From Methanosarcina sp. KYL-1 (lineage in GTDB: Archaea > Halobacteriota > Methanosarcinia > Methanosarcinales > Methanosarcinaceae): a stretch of DNA of 64,000 bases. The stretch is taken from NCBI RefSeq assembly GCF_024372725.1, contig NZ_VOUA01000012.1, forward strand, positions 1 through 64,000, in the 5' to 3' direction. Under the pieces are notes generated by a model. That model searched no databases, was not told the origin of the DNA, and was given only the letters and a program-made list of their open reading frames with translations. The position numbers were made by a program, and so were the translations under genes. Below, piece after piece: positions 28,315 through 41,701 of this stretch (within the stretch, counting starts at the first letter, position 1; each line of letters begins with the position of its first letter).

Positions 28315-28419
28315 GTGAACGGGTAAAACCCTGTTGTGGTCTTGTTTGATGGTAGTTGTCTGTTCGTCTTGTTGGGAGTGATCTTGTAGATGTAGGTTTA
28401 AGAGGGTAGGCCCGTTCAC
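28315..28419 (-). ncRNA. Putative small RNA with terminal stem and G-poor loop (diverged copy A)
   Basis: On the minus strand GTGAACGGG (28419-28411) and CCCGTTCAC (28323-28315) pair perfectly and enclose ~87 nt that is A/C-rich and poor in G. TATTTATA (28460-28453, minus) lies 33 nt upstream. The layout is that of the three copies near 37-38 kb, with a compensatory G-A / T-C change in the stem (GTGAGC/GCTCAC versus GTGAAC/GTTCAC). Confidence 0.55.
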
Positions 28420-34675: not shown

Positions 34676-34992
34676 GTCGATCAGAACTGCAGATCATTAC
34701 TTTTTGGTAAGATTTAAGGTAGTTCTAAGAATACGATTTTTAGGTAGTTCAAAGAAGAACAGGCACAAACATTAATTAATTTTCGCCTATTTTCTTTGTG
34801 GGTAGATATGGCAACTTCAGCCCTTTTATTATCATGACCAGAAATAATTTTAACACAGACTGGCATGTAAAATTAAACTTCTTTATCCAGAATCAGTATC
34901 AGAAGGTATAGCATGAAAAGCCTTATACATAATAAAAAAAATTAAACATATAAGGTTAATAATGAGTTCTCTTTTTATTGGTATGGTTTAAG
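34676..34992. other. Divergent promoter region of mtxXAH and rfcL
   Basis: AT-rich, with two partly duplicated TTAAGGTAGTTC / TTTTAGGTAGTTC segments near 34716-34748, possibly paired sites for the mtx side. TTAAACATATAAGG near 34942 is the likely TATA region of rfcL. No gene is seen. Confidence 0.5.
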
Positions 34993-36918
34993 ATGACGTC
35001 GGCAATCGAATGGGCTGAGAAATACCGCCCCCAGACCCTCGCGGATATTGTGGGGAACAAAAAGGCAGTGCATGATTTCCGGAGCTGGGCTGAGGAGTGG
35101 CTTTCGGGCATCCCCGAGAAGAGGGCTGTGATCCTCGAGGGGCCTGCAGGGATTGGGAAAACGTCCAGTGCCCACGCCCTTGCCCGGGATATGGGCTGGG
35201 AGGCTATTGAGCTTAACGCAAGCGACCAGAGGACCGAAGCCGTGATCGAGAAAATTGCGGGGTCGGCAGCTTCTATGAACACCCTCTTTGGGGGAAAACG
35301 CCTGATCATTCTGGATGAAGCGGACAATATCCACGGGACCGCGGACCGGGGCGGGATGCGGGCGATATCCGGGATCATTAAAAATACGCTTCATCCGATC
35401 GTACTTATTGCAAACGACGTTTACGGGCTCACCCCTACAATCCGGGGGCTCTGCCTGGAAATCAAGTTCGGGTCAGTGCAGAGCCGTTCCATGGTCCCGG
35501 CTCTGAAGAAGGTCTGCGATGCCGAGGGCATCCGCTGTAGCCCCGAAGCGGTCCAGCAGATTGCGGAAAATGCGGGAGGAGACCTCCGGAGTGCCATGAA
35601 CGACCTCCAGGCTGCAGCCAGCGGGAGACAGGTTCTGGAAGCCGAAGACATCAGTACGGCAGGCAGGGACGTAAAGGACAATATTTTCAAGGCAATGCAG
35701 AAGATCTTCAAGAGCACTGACTGCAAAAAGGCCCTTGAAGCTTCACGCGGGCTTGACGAAAGCCCGGAAGACCTGGTGCACTGGATCGATGAAAACCTGC
35801 CTATCCAGTATGCGGGAAAAGGCGGCGAACTCGACGACATCAGGACAGGCTTTGATTATCTCTCAAAGGCGGACCTCTACCTGGGGCGCGTAAAGAGACG
35901 CCAGAACTACCGGATGTGGAGGTATGCCAGCATGCTTATGGTCTGCGGGGCCTCACTTTCGAAGTCCAGGCCCTACCCCGGCTTTATCAAGTACCAGCAG
36001 CCTTCGCTCTGGAAGAGGCTCGGGCAGACCCGGTCAAAACGGGACATGCGGGATAATATTGCTTCAAAGGTAGGGGTACATTCCTTTGAGTCCATGCACT
36101 ATTCCAGGAGCAGCCTGCTTGGGCTTTATTCCCGGATGCTAAATGATGAGGCTTATGCTGTTGACATCGCGGCAGGCCTCGGGCTTGAACTTGAAGAGTT
36201 AATGTACCTTTCGGGAAGCAGCAAGGCTAGCAAAAAGCTCCAGAAAATCTATGATGAGGCCCAGGCTTTGCTGATTAGCGGGGACAAAGAGGGGGCCAGG
36301 GAACCCGAATTCTTCAAGCAACCGGAAAAACCAGGGAAAAAGCAGATGTCTCTGGACTGTCCGGCTCCATCAGAGCCCGCAAAAAAGGCCTCTTCCCTTC
36401 CTGAGATCTCAGTTGTCACCGGACTCGATATACATGTTTCTCCAGATTCTGAAGGAAAGCAGAGGACCCTTAATTTCGGGTTTGCTGCTTCCCCTGAAGA
36501 ACCCCGGAAACCGGAAACAGAAGAAAAGAAGTCCTTTGTCGGCTTTGAATACGTGGAAAGTAAGGCCTTTGAAAGTAATAATTCTGAAAGTAAAGCTCTT
36601 GAATGTAATTTTCCGGACCGAAAGGTTTCAGGTTCTGGAGTTTCTGAAAAGAGGGGCTCAGCTGATTCCGTAACTGAAGAAAGGAATGCCATTACTGTTT
36701 TGGACCCAGTGGAAAGGAAAGTCCCTGCTGGCCCGCCACTTCCGGAAAAGAATGCCTTTACCGATTCGACCTTTCCAAATAAGAAAACTTCTGTGGTCCC
36801 GAAGCTTTCTGAAAAGAAAGCTTCCGAGGGCACGGAGTCGGCAGGCCTTCCTGAAGTGGAAAGCGAAGCTCCTAAAAAAGCCGAACAGAAAACGCAAAAA
36901 ACACTGTTCGACTTTTAA
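34993..36918 (+). CDS. rfcL: Replication factor C large subunit
   Basis: A 641-residue clamp-loader large subunit that loads the PCNA sliding clamp. AAA+ core in residues ~1-230: [14 protein letters not shown], Walker [11 protein letters not shown], Walker [10 protein letters not shown], and sensor-type [11 protein letters not shown]. The RFC box and collar region extends to ~450. From ~455 to ~630 follows a low-complexity linker with many ERK/EKK-spaced Ser/Glu units, then the C-terminal PIP box QKTLFDF that binds PCNA. ATG 34993 is chosen over in-frame TTG 34978. The small subunit gene is not in the window. The linker is the variable part of the family. Confidence 0.95.
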
Positions 36919-36985: not shown

Positions 36986-37063
36986 GTGAGCGAGTCTGGG
37001 GGTTGACTTAAAAGAAGAAGTTTTGGGGATGTTCTTGGGAAGTGGGGGTATGGACCCGCTCAC
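36986..37063 (-). ncRNA. Putative small RNA with terminal stem and C-rich loop (copy B)
   Basis: On the minus strand GTGAGCGGGTC (37063-37053) pairs with GACTCGCTCAC (36996-36986), ten of eleven positions. The 56-nt loop contains CCCCC twice and CCCC once and only two G. A TATA box 24 nt upstream places the expected RNA 5' end at or next to the first stem base. Confidence 0.65.
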
Positions 37064-37087
37064 ATAGACTATATATGGAAATTTACT

Positions 37088-37095
37088 TATAAATA
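37088..37095 (-). promoter_or_regulatory. TATA box of putative small RNA copy B
   Basis: TATTTATA on the minus strand, directly after AAAAAAG (BRE-like purines). It is separated from the stem by 24 nt. Copies C and D have the same box at 23 nt. Confidence 0.6.
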
Positions 37096-37192
37096 CTTTT
37101 TTAATATATTAAAAAATATTTTTACTCGTTGACATAATGGATAATATATTTTGAAGGATAACATTTTCTGCAGGAACTTTTGCAGTCTCAAG

Positions 37193-37203
37193 TGAGCGGG
37201 GTG
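37193..37203. repeat. Solitary half-site of the small-RNA stem
   Basis: AGTGAGCGGGG occurs between copies B and C, without the complementary arm or TATA box within 120 bases. It may be the remnant of a further copy. Confidence 0.35.
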
Positions 37204-37330
37204 GAATCCGGAGTACGCGTGCGGATGCAGATGGCAGGCAATGCATAACCAGGCCTGGAAAGAGAATGGGATGTTTCTCTCAGGTTTCAGGAAAAGTTCG
37301 AAAAGTGGCCAGAAAGGTTGAAAAGAAGGT

Positions 37331-37422
37331 GTGAGCGGGTTGGAGTGTTTTTGGGAATATTTGGGGGAATAGTTGGGGGATATGAGTTTGGGGGGTTATA
37401 CTTTGAAAAGAGACCCGCTCAC
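37331..37422 (-). ncRNA. Putative small RNA with terminal stem and C-rich loop (copy C)
   Basis: On the minus strand GTGAGCGGGT (37422-37413) and ACCCGCTCAC (37340-37331) form a perfect 10-bp stem around a 72-nt loop. The loop has three CCCCC(C) tracts and two CCC tracts spaced by A/T-rich bases and a single G. CTTCTTTTC follows the stem and could end transcription. TATA box 23 nt upstream. Confidence 0.7.
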
Positions 37423-37445
37423 AGAGCATCTGTACCATCACATCA

Positions 37446-37453
37446 TATAAATA
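37446..37453 (-). promoter_or_regulatory. TATA box of putative small RNA copy C
   Basis: TATTTATA on the minus strand preceded by GAAAAAG, 23 nt before the stem. Confidence 0.6.
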
Positions 37454-38057
37454 CTTTTTCCTTATATATTGTATATTTTATAATTCGGGCATGTATCTTT
37501 ATTTTTAAAAATGTTCTCCCAGGTCCTCTCGTCCGTCTTTCAATATGTGGCTCTTTCGATATGGCAAAATAAGCTACATGCACGTATTTCTCTCCAATTC
37601 AAAGAGTTATTTAAAGGGTATTTGCCCTTCTGAAGAAAGTCGGTTTTTCCTGTGACAAGTTACAGGCCGGGTGCAAAAATGAAGTGTAAAAGCATTGAGG
37701 GAGCATTGGAGGAGGATTTCTATTTTTGGGTTGAATCCTTTTTTGTTTTAATCTTTTTTTTGAACTTTTTAGTATTAATTGCCTGGTTTATCTGGCAGTG
37801 GGGATGTCAGCTGAAAAAAATGAATAGCTTTTTGAGTTTTCTATGGGGACGAGAGTCTTGCATTCGGAACGTGACAATTTTATATTGAATATATATAATT
37901 TTCTCTTTATGCTAATCTCCGGATGCAAGGATTAAAGGCAGGAATACCGCTTCTGCCCATCTGAATAAACACTCACTTTCGCCGGTTATAGGGTTATCGG
38001 AGAAAAAGTCGGTACATTAATCATTACGAAAATCAGTAAGAATCAGTAAGAATCATA
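37454..38057. other. Intergenic between small-RNA copies C and D
   Basis: It contains an AT-rich stretch with a 78-codon frame at 37652-37888 that has one hydrophobic segment but no ribosome binding site and no recognisable family. AATCAGTAAG is duplicated at 38031-38050 just left of copy D. No gene is called. Confidence 0.4.
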
Positions 38058-38131
38058 GTGAGCGGGTTGGGGAGTATGAATTGGGGGTGTTGGGGGGTTG
38101 GGGTTATCTTACAAAATAGAGACCCGCTCAC
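38058..38131 (-). ncRNA. Putative small RNA with terminal stem and C-rich loop (copy D)
   Basis: On the minus strand GTGAGCGGGT (38131-38122) and ACCCGCTCAC (38067-38058) form a perfect 10-bp stem around a 54-nt loop that contains CCCC, CCCCCC, CCCCC and CCCC and only two G. TATA box 23 nt upstream. It is the shortest copy. Confidence 0.7.
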
Positions 38132-38154
38132 AAATACCTTTCATGTTGATATAC

Positions 38155-38162
38155 TATAAATA
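38155..38162 (-). promoter_or_regulatory. TATA box of putative small RNA copy D
   Basis: TATTTATA on the minus strand after ACAAA, 23 nt before the stem. Confidence 0.6.
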
Positions 38163-39985: not shown

Positions 39986-41701
39986 TCAGGCAAGTGTGCA
40001 GCAGTCATCTGTCACATACATCCAGTACCCTTTGTACGGATATACGGGGAAGAGATCCACTGTCATATGGGTCTCATCGTAACATGTGTCACTGCACCCG
40101 TTTTTGTAACCGGTGTACTGGTAGTCCCAGTATCCATTATCACATACCCATGGGCCCACAACCTTTGAGTAGTAGCCTTCAACGGTTACAAACGCACAGT
40201 TTGCATATTGAGTGCTTGTTTCGGGAGAACCGACAGCATTCCAGCCAGGATACAACTTGAGTGCCGGAAGGACGTTATTTGTCTGCTTCCTGACGAGTTT
40301 TTCTGCCGGGATACAGCAGTCTTCCTTGGCATAAATCCAGTACCCTTTCAAAGGTTCCCAGTTCATACTCAGTGAGTGCACCCATTTATCGGCAGTGCAA
40401 GTTGCAGATGCGTCATAGTACTGGACACACGTAACAACATCAGATAAACCGCAGAGGACATCTTTAAAGGCCGGTTTCTCCAGTGTATACGGGATGGATA
40501 CGAAGTTCCAGCCAGCAGTGAGACATAGGCCGTCGGGAAGCACTACTTCTGCTACATTGATCTGTGTGTCACAGTCGATTGCTGCAGGTTCAGACATCCC
40601 TTCCATCATGAACTCGCCGTCAAAGGTGTACGTTCCACAAGCTTCTTCAGGAATCTCTACGGTGTAGGTGTATGTCGTGTCTGCTGCACCGCTTGTGATT
40701 ACCCACTTGACGTGCCCCGGTTCACAGTTGTAGTCCCCACTACCGCTTGCACCGGTTATTGTCCATCCTGCAGGAACAACCTCGTCAATGGCGTAGTATG
40801 TGGCAGAGTCCACTGTCACGTCCAGTTTGACGGTAATCGTCGAGCCGGGTGCCTGGTCTTCTTCGGGGAGGTCCCTGCACACATTGCTGTCGTCTCCTCC
40901 GGTGACATCATCTGCAACATTGACCTGTGTGTCACAGTCGATTGCTGCAGGGTCTGCCATCCCCTCCATCATAAATTCGCCGTTAAAGGTATATGCTCCG
41001 CTGGCATCTTCGGGAATCTCTACGGTGTAGGTGTATGTCGTGTCTGCTGCACCGCTTGTGATTACCCACTTGACGTGCCCCGGATCTTTGGTGTAGTCCC
41101 CGCTGCCACTTGCACCGGTTACTGTCCAGCCTTCAGGAACTTCCTCGTCAATGGCGTAGTATGTGGCAGAGTCCACTGTCACGTCCAGTTTGACGGTAAT
41201 CGTCGAGCCGGGTGCCTGGTCTTCTTCGGGGAGGTCCCTGCACACATTGCTGCAGTCGTCTCCTCCGGTGACATCATCTGCAACATTGACCTGTGTGTCA
41301 CAGTCGATTGCTGCAGGGTCTGCCATCCCCTCCATCATAAATTCGCCGTTAAAGGTATATGCTCCGCTGGCATCTTCGGGAATCTCTACGGTGTAGGTGT
41401 ATGTCGTGTCTGCTGCACCGCTTGTGATTACCCACTTGACGTGCCCCGGATCTTTGGTGTAGTCCCCGCTGCCACTTGCACCGGTTACTGTCCAGCCTTC
41501 AGGAACTTCCTCGTCAATGGCGTAGTATGTGGCAGAACCCACCGTTACACCCAGTGAGACGGTAATCGTTGAACCTGGTGCCAGATCACCCGATGGAAGA
41601 TCCCTGCAGACATTAGAGGAACCTGTAGCTGATGCCCCCAAAGGTAATGCCGCTAAAAGCAGCATTGCTACAATTCCAATCGTCATAATTGCTTTATTCA
41701 T
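39986..41701 (-). CDS. Secreted repeat protein with three ~121-residue repeats
   Basis: A 571-residue exported protein. Signal peptide in residues 1-25. Three tandem repeats of about 121 residues follow, each with SNVCRDLP, APGSTITV, ATYYAIDE.VPEGWTVTGASG, HVKWVITSGAADTTYTYTVE and the EFMMEGM.PAAIDCDTQ end; the DNA of the repeats is nearly identical over ~360 bp, so they are recent duplications. The C-terminal ~180 residues hold two LxxGWNxVxxP / KGYWIY modules and many cysteines. No C-terminal anchor is visible. ATG 41701 follows GGGGGAAAGATT. Probably a cell-envelope or adhesion protein. Confidence 0.8.
   Translation of the reverse strand: MNKAIMTIGIVAMLLLAALPLGASATGSSNVCRDLPSGDLAPGSTITVSLGVTVGSATYYAIDEEVPEGWTVTGASGSGDYTKDPGHVKWVITSGAADTTYTYTVEIPEDASGAYTFNGEFMMEGMADPAAIDCDTQVNVADDVTGGDDCSNVCRDLPEEDQAPGSTITVKLDVTVDSATYYAIDEEVPEGWTVTGASGSGDYTKDPGHVKWVITSGAADTTYTYTVEIPEDASGAYTFNGEFMMEGMADPAAIDCDTQVNVADDVTGGDDSNVCRDLPEEDQAPGSTITVKLDVTVDSATYYAIDEVVPAGWTITGASGSGDYNCEPGHVKWVITSGAADTTYTYTVEIPEEACGTYTFDGEFMMEGMSEPAAIDCDTQINVAEVVLPDGLCLTAGWNFVSIPYTLEKPAFKDVLCGLSDVVTCVQYYDASATCTADKWVHSLSMNWEPLKGYWIYAKEDCCIPAEKLVRKQTNNVLPALKLYPGWNAVGSPETSTQYANCAFVTVEGYYSKVVGPWVCDNGYWDYQYTGYKNGCSDTCYDETHMTVDLFPVYPYKGYWMYVTDDCCTLA

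Follow-up and report, generated by a model that had tools for sequence, protein, structure and literature searches.

A family of putative small-RNA genes with a covarying terminal stem and a conserved C-rich loop motif in methane-cycling archaea

The locus studied here, in the archaeon Methanosarcina sp. KYL-1, raises the question of whether three closely spaced C-rich inverted repeats are genes of one small-RNA family and, if they are, how such RNAs might act. The three units lie on the minus strand of a 64-kb stretch of DNA, referred to as the window, and a previous interpretation made from the letters alone (the sequence-only reading) had placed them exactly where we find them: c1 at 36986..37063 (78 nt), c2 at 37331..37422 (92 nt) and c3 at 38058..38131 (74 nt). 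In each unit a TATTTATA box, at 37088..37095, 37446..37453 and 38155..38162 of the minus strand for c1, c2 and c3, is followed after 24, 23 and 23 nt, respectively, by the 5' arm GTGAGCGGGT, a G-poor loop of 54-72 nt and a closing arm, an arrangement that the same reading had described correctly. The 3' arms conform to ACYCGCTCAC, with c3 ending in ACUCCCCAACCCGCUCAC and c1 in ACTCGCTCAC, where one G-U pair takes the place of G-C; orthologues of c1 elsewhere in Methanosarcina have the arms GTGAGCGGA/TCCGCTCAC. The closing stems are 9-11 bp long, and the loops between the 10-nt arms measure 58, 72 and 54 nt and contain 3, 1 and 2 G in c1, c2 and c3, respectively. Exact stem-loops of this kind were absent from all 100 dinucleotide shuffles, and the fold z-score of about -5 obtained for each unit reflects a closing stem with an almost unpaired loop.

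The cluster is convergent to a replication factor C large subunit-like gene (rfcL; 34978..36918, plus strand), recognized by its Pfam AAA and RFC lid domains, and this neighbor is also retained in other genera. An isolated decamer resembling the 3' arm, CCCCGCTCAC, lies between c1 and c2 (37192..37201, minus strand) and differs from the stem decamer at one position; a search for a partner arm found none, and it is perhaps a remnant. Beyond the cluster, the minus strand of the window encodes at 39986-41701 a 571-aa surface-type protein whose internal repeats, each of about 100 aa, are almost the same in sequence; a GGGGG site precedes its start.

The stem indicates that the units are selected as RNA. 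Among 94 members, 8 of the 10 stem pairs have changed on both sides, and 87 both-sides-changed cells were counted against 17.7 in shuffles (0/500) and 2-6 in slid-arm controls, in an alignment that was fitted to a covariance model and hence leans towards the structure. The compensation is nevertheless plain in the raw sequences, where arm pairs such as GTGAGC/GCTCAC, ATGAGC/GCTCAT, ACGAGC/GCTCGT, TTGCGC/GCGCAA, CTGACG/CGTCAG, GCGAAC/GTTCGC and GGGCAGG/CCTGCCC are found. A fourth copy of the same genome (c4; G000:C37:7242-7314), which adjoins the membrane pyrophosphatase gene hppA and an MFS gene and has the same TATA layout as c1-c3, illustrates this at a single locus: 22 genomes from two genera share the 73-nt sequence without a difference, and the place is kept across genera while the stem is rewritten (GTGAGCGGG in Methanosarcina, TTGCGCGGG in genus g11). 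The family is thus not confined to the three copies of the sequence-only reading.

Conservation also delimits the units. In 90% of the members, against 3-9% in control windows, a TATA-like motif begins 26-36 nt ahead of the stem, and in the orthologue groups of c1-c4 the identity is 0.83-0.97 in the TATA zone (0.90 pairwise for c1) and 0.75-1.00 over the RNA, falling to 0.26-0.51 beyond the 3' arm, so that the conserved stretch runs from the TATA box to the final base of the stem. The loop of c3 alone shows an identity of 0.91 over 13 orthologues, compared with 0.31-0.45 in the flanks. Start-site mapping in Methanolobus psychrophilus gives a distance of 19-22 nt between TATA box and start (PMC5378194), and the RNA should therefore begin at the stem or no more than about 4 nt ahead of it. 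The promoter spacing, taken as constant in the sequence-only reading, is not so family-wide, since many hppA-side orthologues have a spacing of 39-41 nt and not 32. In these orthologues the stem is five pairs longer outward, with species-specific pairs (GAGTA/TACTT, AAGAT/ATCTT), and the paired-end layout thus seems to be kept; folding with flanks was too noisy to trace such an extension over all members, but it held for the hppA-side copies. As expected of independent archaeal small-RNA genes, the members have a TATA box at start distance, are intergenic (164 of 169 are clear of open reading frames of at least 90 aa) and form conserved units of their own. Loss of the TATA box or of the arm pairing in relatives had been named as grounds for abandoning the idea of a small-RNA gene family with a promoter at a set distance, ends that pair and C tracts left unpaired; both are conserved, and the idea is supported. 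On these grounds the units are almost certainly small-RNA genes and are very likely transcribed as small RNAs.

How widely such genes occur was assessed with two covariance models. The first, built from four copies with the promoter excluded, matched every one of the 31 genomes of the genus at an E-value of 1 or less; the match was strong in 30, and it reached only E 0.18 in the remaining one, which is 60% complete (G027). The same model matched 101 of the 112 genomes of the family. The second, built from 94 members, found the RNA family in 174 of the 186 genomes of the order, including 117 of the 118 good ones, and in 25 of its 27 genera; c1, c2 and c3 score 39.4, 53.0 and 77.9 bits with it, and in other genomes the orthologue of c2 keeps its place in the order of the copies. 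In a sample of 393 genomes of the phylum, matches were confined to the order and one further family of the same class, which appears to be Methanothrix-like, and none was found in the genomes beyond that class. Among named genomes, exact matches to the stem core occur in Methanosarcina, Methanolobus, Methanococcoides, Methanohalophilus, Methanomethylovorans, Methanosalsum, Methanoperedenaceae and ANME-2 cluster archaea. Being near-universal in the class and absent from all genomes sampled outside it, the family probably has a job that is old and conserved. Two genera of the same taxonomic family with genomes of 1.3-1.8 Mb, g6 (6 genomes) and g8 (2 genomes), gave no match to the second model, which suggests that the RNA was lost during genome reduction and indicates that it is not indispensable. 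A search for viral carriage returned no exact matches, and four looser ones lacked the stem and are attributable to chance.

The genomes typically contain several family genes, up to 13. Contig C10 of the same genome has four minus-strand units (G000:C10:27461, 38232, 40305 and 43334; loci L091 and L092) with a second stem type, AGGGCATCTGA/TCAGATGCCCT, which keep the plan of a TATA box, paired ends and CUCUUUU followed by C tracts; their loops are long with multiple C tracts, and ATCCCCC follows the 3' arm in several. A subgroup with the stem GCGAACGGG/CCCGTTCGC and fewer C tracts (L132, L138, L161, L163, L164, L123, L373 and L386) includes several members that adjoin one GTPase-like gene across genera, and family f5 (G152-G182) has up to 13 copies per genome with stems such as GTGGGCAGGT/ACCTGCCCAC. 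In the window, the second model also gave a weak match (21.1 bits, E 0.0025) at 28315..28419 of the minus strand, where a compensated stem, GTGAACGGG ... CCCGTTCAC, encloses a long, A/C-rich and G-poor loop with TATTTATATA upstream; this could possibly be a divergent member. In genome G031, a C-rich loop with a similar stem, GCAGGCGGG/CCCGCCTGC, interrupts a tRNA-like gene (L136 1001-1062 and L153 1001-1062), with T-arm and acceptor-like sequence after the stem-loop; it may be an intron of this gene or a unit derived from a tRNA, and was excluded from the family model.

In contrast to the stem, which is rewritten with its pairing kept, the motif of the loop has barely changed across the class. 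Outside Methanosarcina, a typical member of about 48-60 nt consists of the 5' arm, a U-run and CUAACCCCCACUCCCCA directly before the 3' arm. In 168 of 169 members the 5' arm is followed by at least four U in a row, and the G content of the loops is 2.4%, these members having been gathered via the C motif, whose frequency among them is hence not independent evidence; CUAACCCCCACUCCCCA recurs, however, in the model-based matches, which are independent of that collection, and the core motif also adjoins the 3' arm in the ANME-2-like and Methanothrix-like families. The loops of c1, c2 and the AGGGCATCTGA set are diverged and share general C-tract content only, and those of c1-c3 are conserved within each orthologue group. 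A stem that is rewritten with pairing intact, together with a loop motif that hardly changes class-wide, suggests that the stem is a scaffold and that the loop is read by a partner acting in trans.

We accordingly favor, at about even odds, a model in which the RNAs act as a sponge or scaffold by displaying their motif to a conserved single-strand RNA-binding protein. Each unit would be a small noncoding RNA gene that is independent of its neighbors and has a TATA promoter to itself, and its product would start at the closing stem or a few nt before it and pair its two ends. These would hold out a G-poor loop with the U-run and one to several motif copies around AACCCCCACUCCCCA, the stem being free to change as long as it pairs and the loop being recognized in trans by a partner that does not vary, most likely a protein of this kind. 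Several genes per genome, each RNA with several motif copies, would fit a sponge or scaffold role, and the U-run might be there for an Lsm-type protein. Titration of a C-binding protein, one of the two functions offered in the sequence-only reading, fits better than the other, a block of GGGGG ribosome binding sites.

The latter function belongs to the strongest competing explanation, namely that the RNAs are trans-acting antisense regulators whose C tracts pair with GGGGG-type sites of many mRNAs and block translation. GGGGG is indeed a genuine Shine-Dalgarno variant, found in the Shine-Dalgarno zone of 13 of 271 starts and 1-3 times in other zones, a minority one that is roughly as frequent as GGAGG (18). 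The loops are single-stranded in folds, the M. mazei sRNA41 and sRNA154 are proposed to mask ribosome binding sites (reviewed in PMC5867862), short-seed pairing to many mRNAs would likewise preserve a C-rich motif, the c1-c3 loops are conserved within orthologue groups, and the divergence of the c1, c2 and AGGGCATCTGA-type loops is as expected of RNAs with their own mRNA targets. Against this, the real loops pair with the 271 start regions no better than reversed-loop controls, GGGGAG, the partner of the invariant CUCCCC, is absent from all 236 Methanosarcina start regions, and no conserved extended complement was found. The motif is, moreover, constant across the class, whereas target sites should drift. 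In a search of 12 genomes allowing up to two mismatches, the best matches to the complement of the core were the RNA genes themselves and the counts of other near-complements equaled those of the reversed control, a 16-nt complement being essentially absent outside the RNA genes; one long antisense target is therefore disfavored. The complement TGGGGAGTGGGGG has 88 matches in its own genome, compared with 83 for the reversed control. The loops could pair with G-rich sites in a generic way, but the tests gave no sign that they are tuned to this; a specific block of ribosome binding sites is thus at best weakly supported, and we consider antisense action as a whole rather unlikely. Among other candidate partners, rRNA, tested with two rRNA operons from other genomes, gave best duplexes no better than random stretches and at differing sites.

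A collection of unrelated small-RNA genes that share just a stabilizing terminal stem and a C-rich composition would account for the differences between paralogous loops and for the second stem type AGGGCATCTGA in the same genome, but it leaves unexplained why the U-run and the motif next to the 3' arm recur across the class, and we regard it as improbable. Still less probable is a DNA-level repeat (a mobile inverted repeat, a cruciform or a template-strand G-quadruplex) that encodes no RNA: the units are multi-copy inverted repeats with G tracts on the template strand, yet orthologous positions are kept across genera despite the change of stem, the TATA box stays at a fixed distance, and the G tracts of the minimal members are not numerous enough to form an intramolecular quadruplex. 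Least probable of all is a cis-acting leader or riboswitch-like element, for although in 45 of 153 members the next gene downstream is on the same strand, at a median of 164 nt, 108 face a convergent gene, the neighbors vary by locus (hppA, rfcL and others) and nearly all members are clear of open reading frames.

The preferred model of motif display has counterparts among known RNAs. CsrB and RsmZ are bacterial sponges, encoded by several genes, that present GGA motifs in hairpin loops to the protein CsrA. The C-loop RNAs resemble them in having a repeated single-stranded motif on a structured RNA and several genes, and differ in being archaeal, in carrying a C motif in one open loop and in that their partner is putative. 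In Y RNAs, the 5' and 3' ends likewise pair to close a pyrimidine-rich loop, but there it is the stem that is conserved, for binding Ro60, whereas most positions of the C-loop stem vary by compensation and the loop is conserved, which argues against a Y RNA.

A search of Rfam 15 found a tRNA as the sole match in the window and none over the units in 12 further loci, in agreement with the sequence-only reading, which had recognized no named RNA family; the best sub-threshold matches of a lax search of the locus are attributable to chance. Like sRNA162 and sRNA171, the C-loop RNAs would be intergenic regulatory RNAs of Methanosarcina with homologues in related species. sRNA162 of M. mazei, however, consists of three conserved stem-loops and a 39-nt single-stranded linker and has homologues in close relatives only (PMC3510493), whereas the C-loop family has one terminal stem and one open loop, without three stem-loops, and is class-wide. 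sRNA41 and sRNA154 of M. mazei are intergenic as well (PMC5867862). sRNA41 targets ACDS ribosome binding sites, which for cdhA, cdhB and cdhC are AGGAGG here, and the loops of c1-c3 contain no CCUCC and are not complementary to these sites; by target-site complementarity, the copies are thus probably distinct from sRNA41. Methanolobus, which also has the C-loop family, is the host of nine highly conserved, promoter-driven and cold-induced sRNAs described in M. psychrophilus (PMC5378194), and these could overlap with it. We found no literature describing the family, though single copies may figure among reported M. mazei transcripts. We regard the C-loop RNAs as a new, previously uncatalogued RNA family, even if the working principle, sponge or antisense, may be a familiar one.

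Archaeal regulatory RNAs are known mostly species by species. A family with an invariant loop and a covarying stem that is present in 117 of the 118 good genomes of an order to which major producers and oxidizers of methane belong is a rare deep landmark, and it is ready for inclusion in RNA family libraries and genome annotation. Its loop motif offers a bait for the RNA-binding protein or the targets of a conserved post-transcriptional layer in methane-cycling archaea. We tentatively propose, at less than even odds, a class-wide ribonucleoprotein system in which multi-gene RNAs with paired ends would present the invariant CUAACCCCCACUCCCCA to one conserved RNA-binding protein and so serve methanogens and ANME-2 methanotrophs alike as a sponge or scaffold that acts globally after transcription; if true, it would have no described counterpart.
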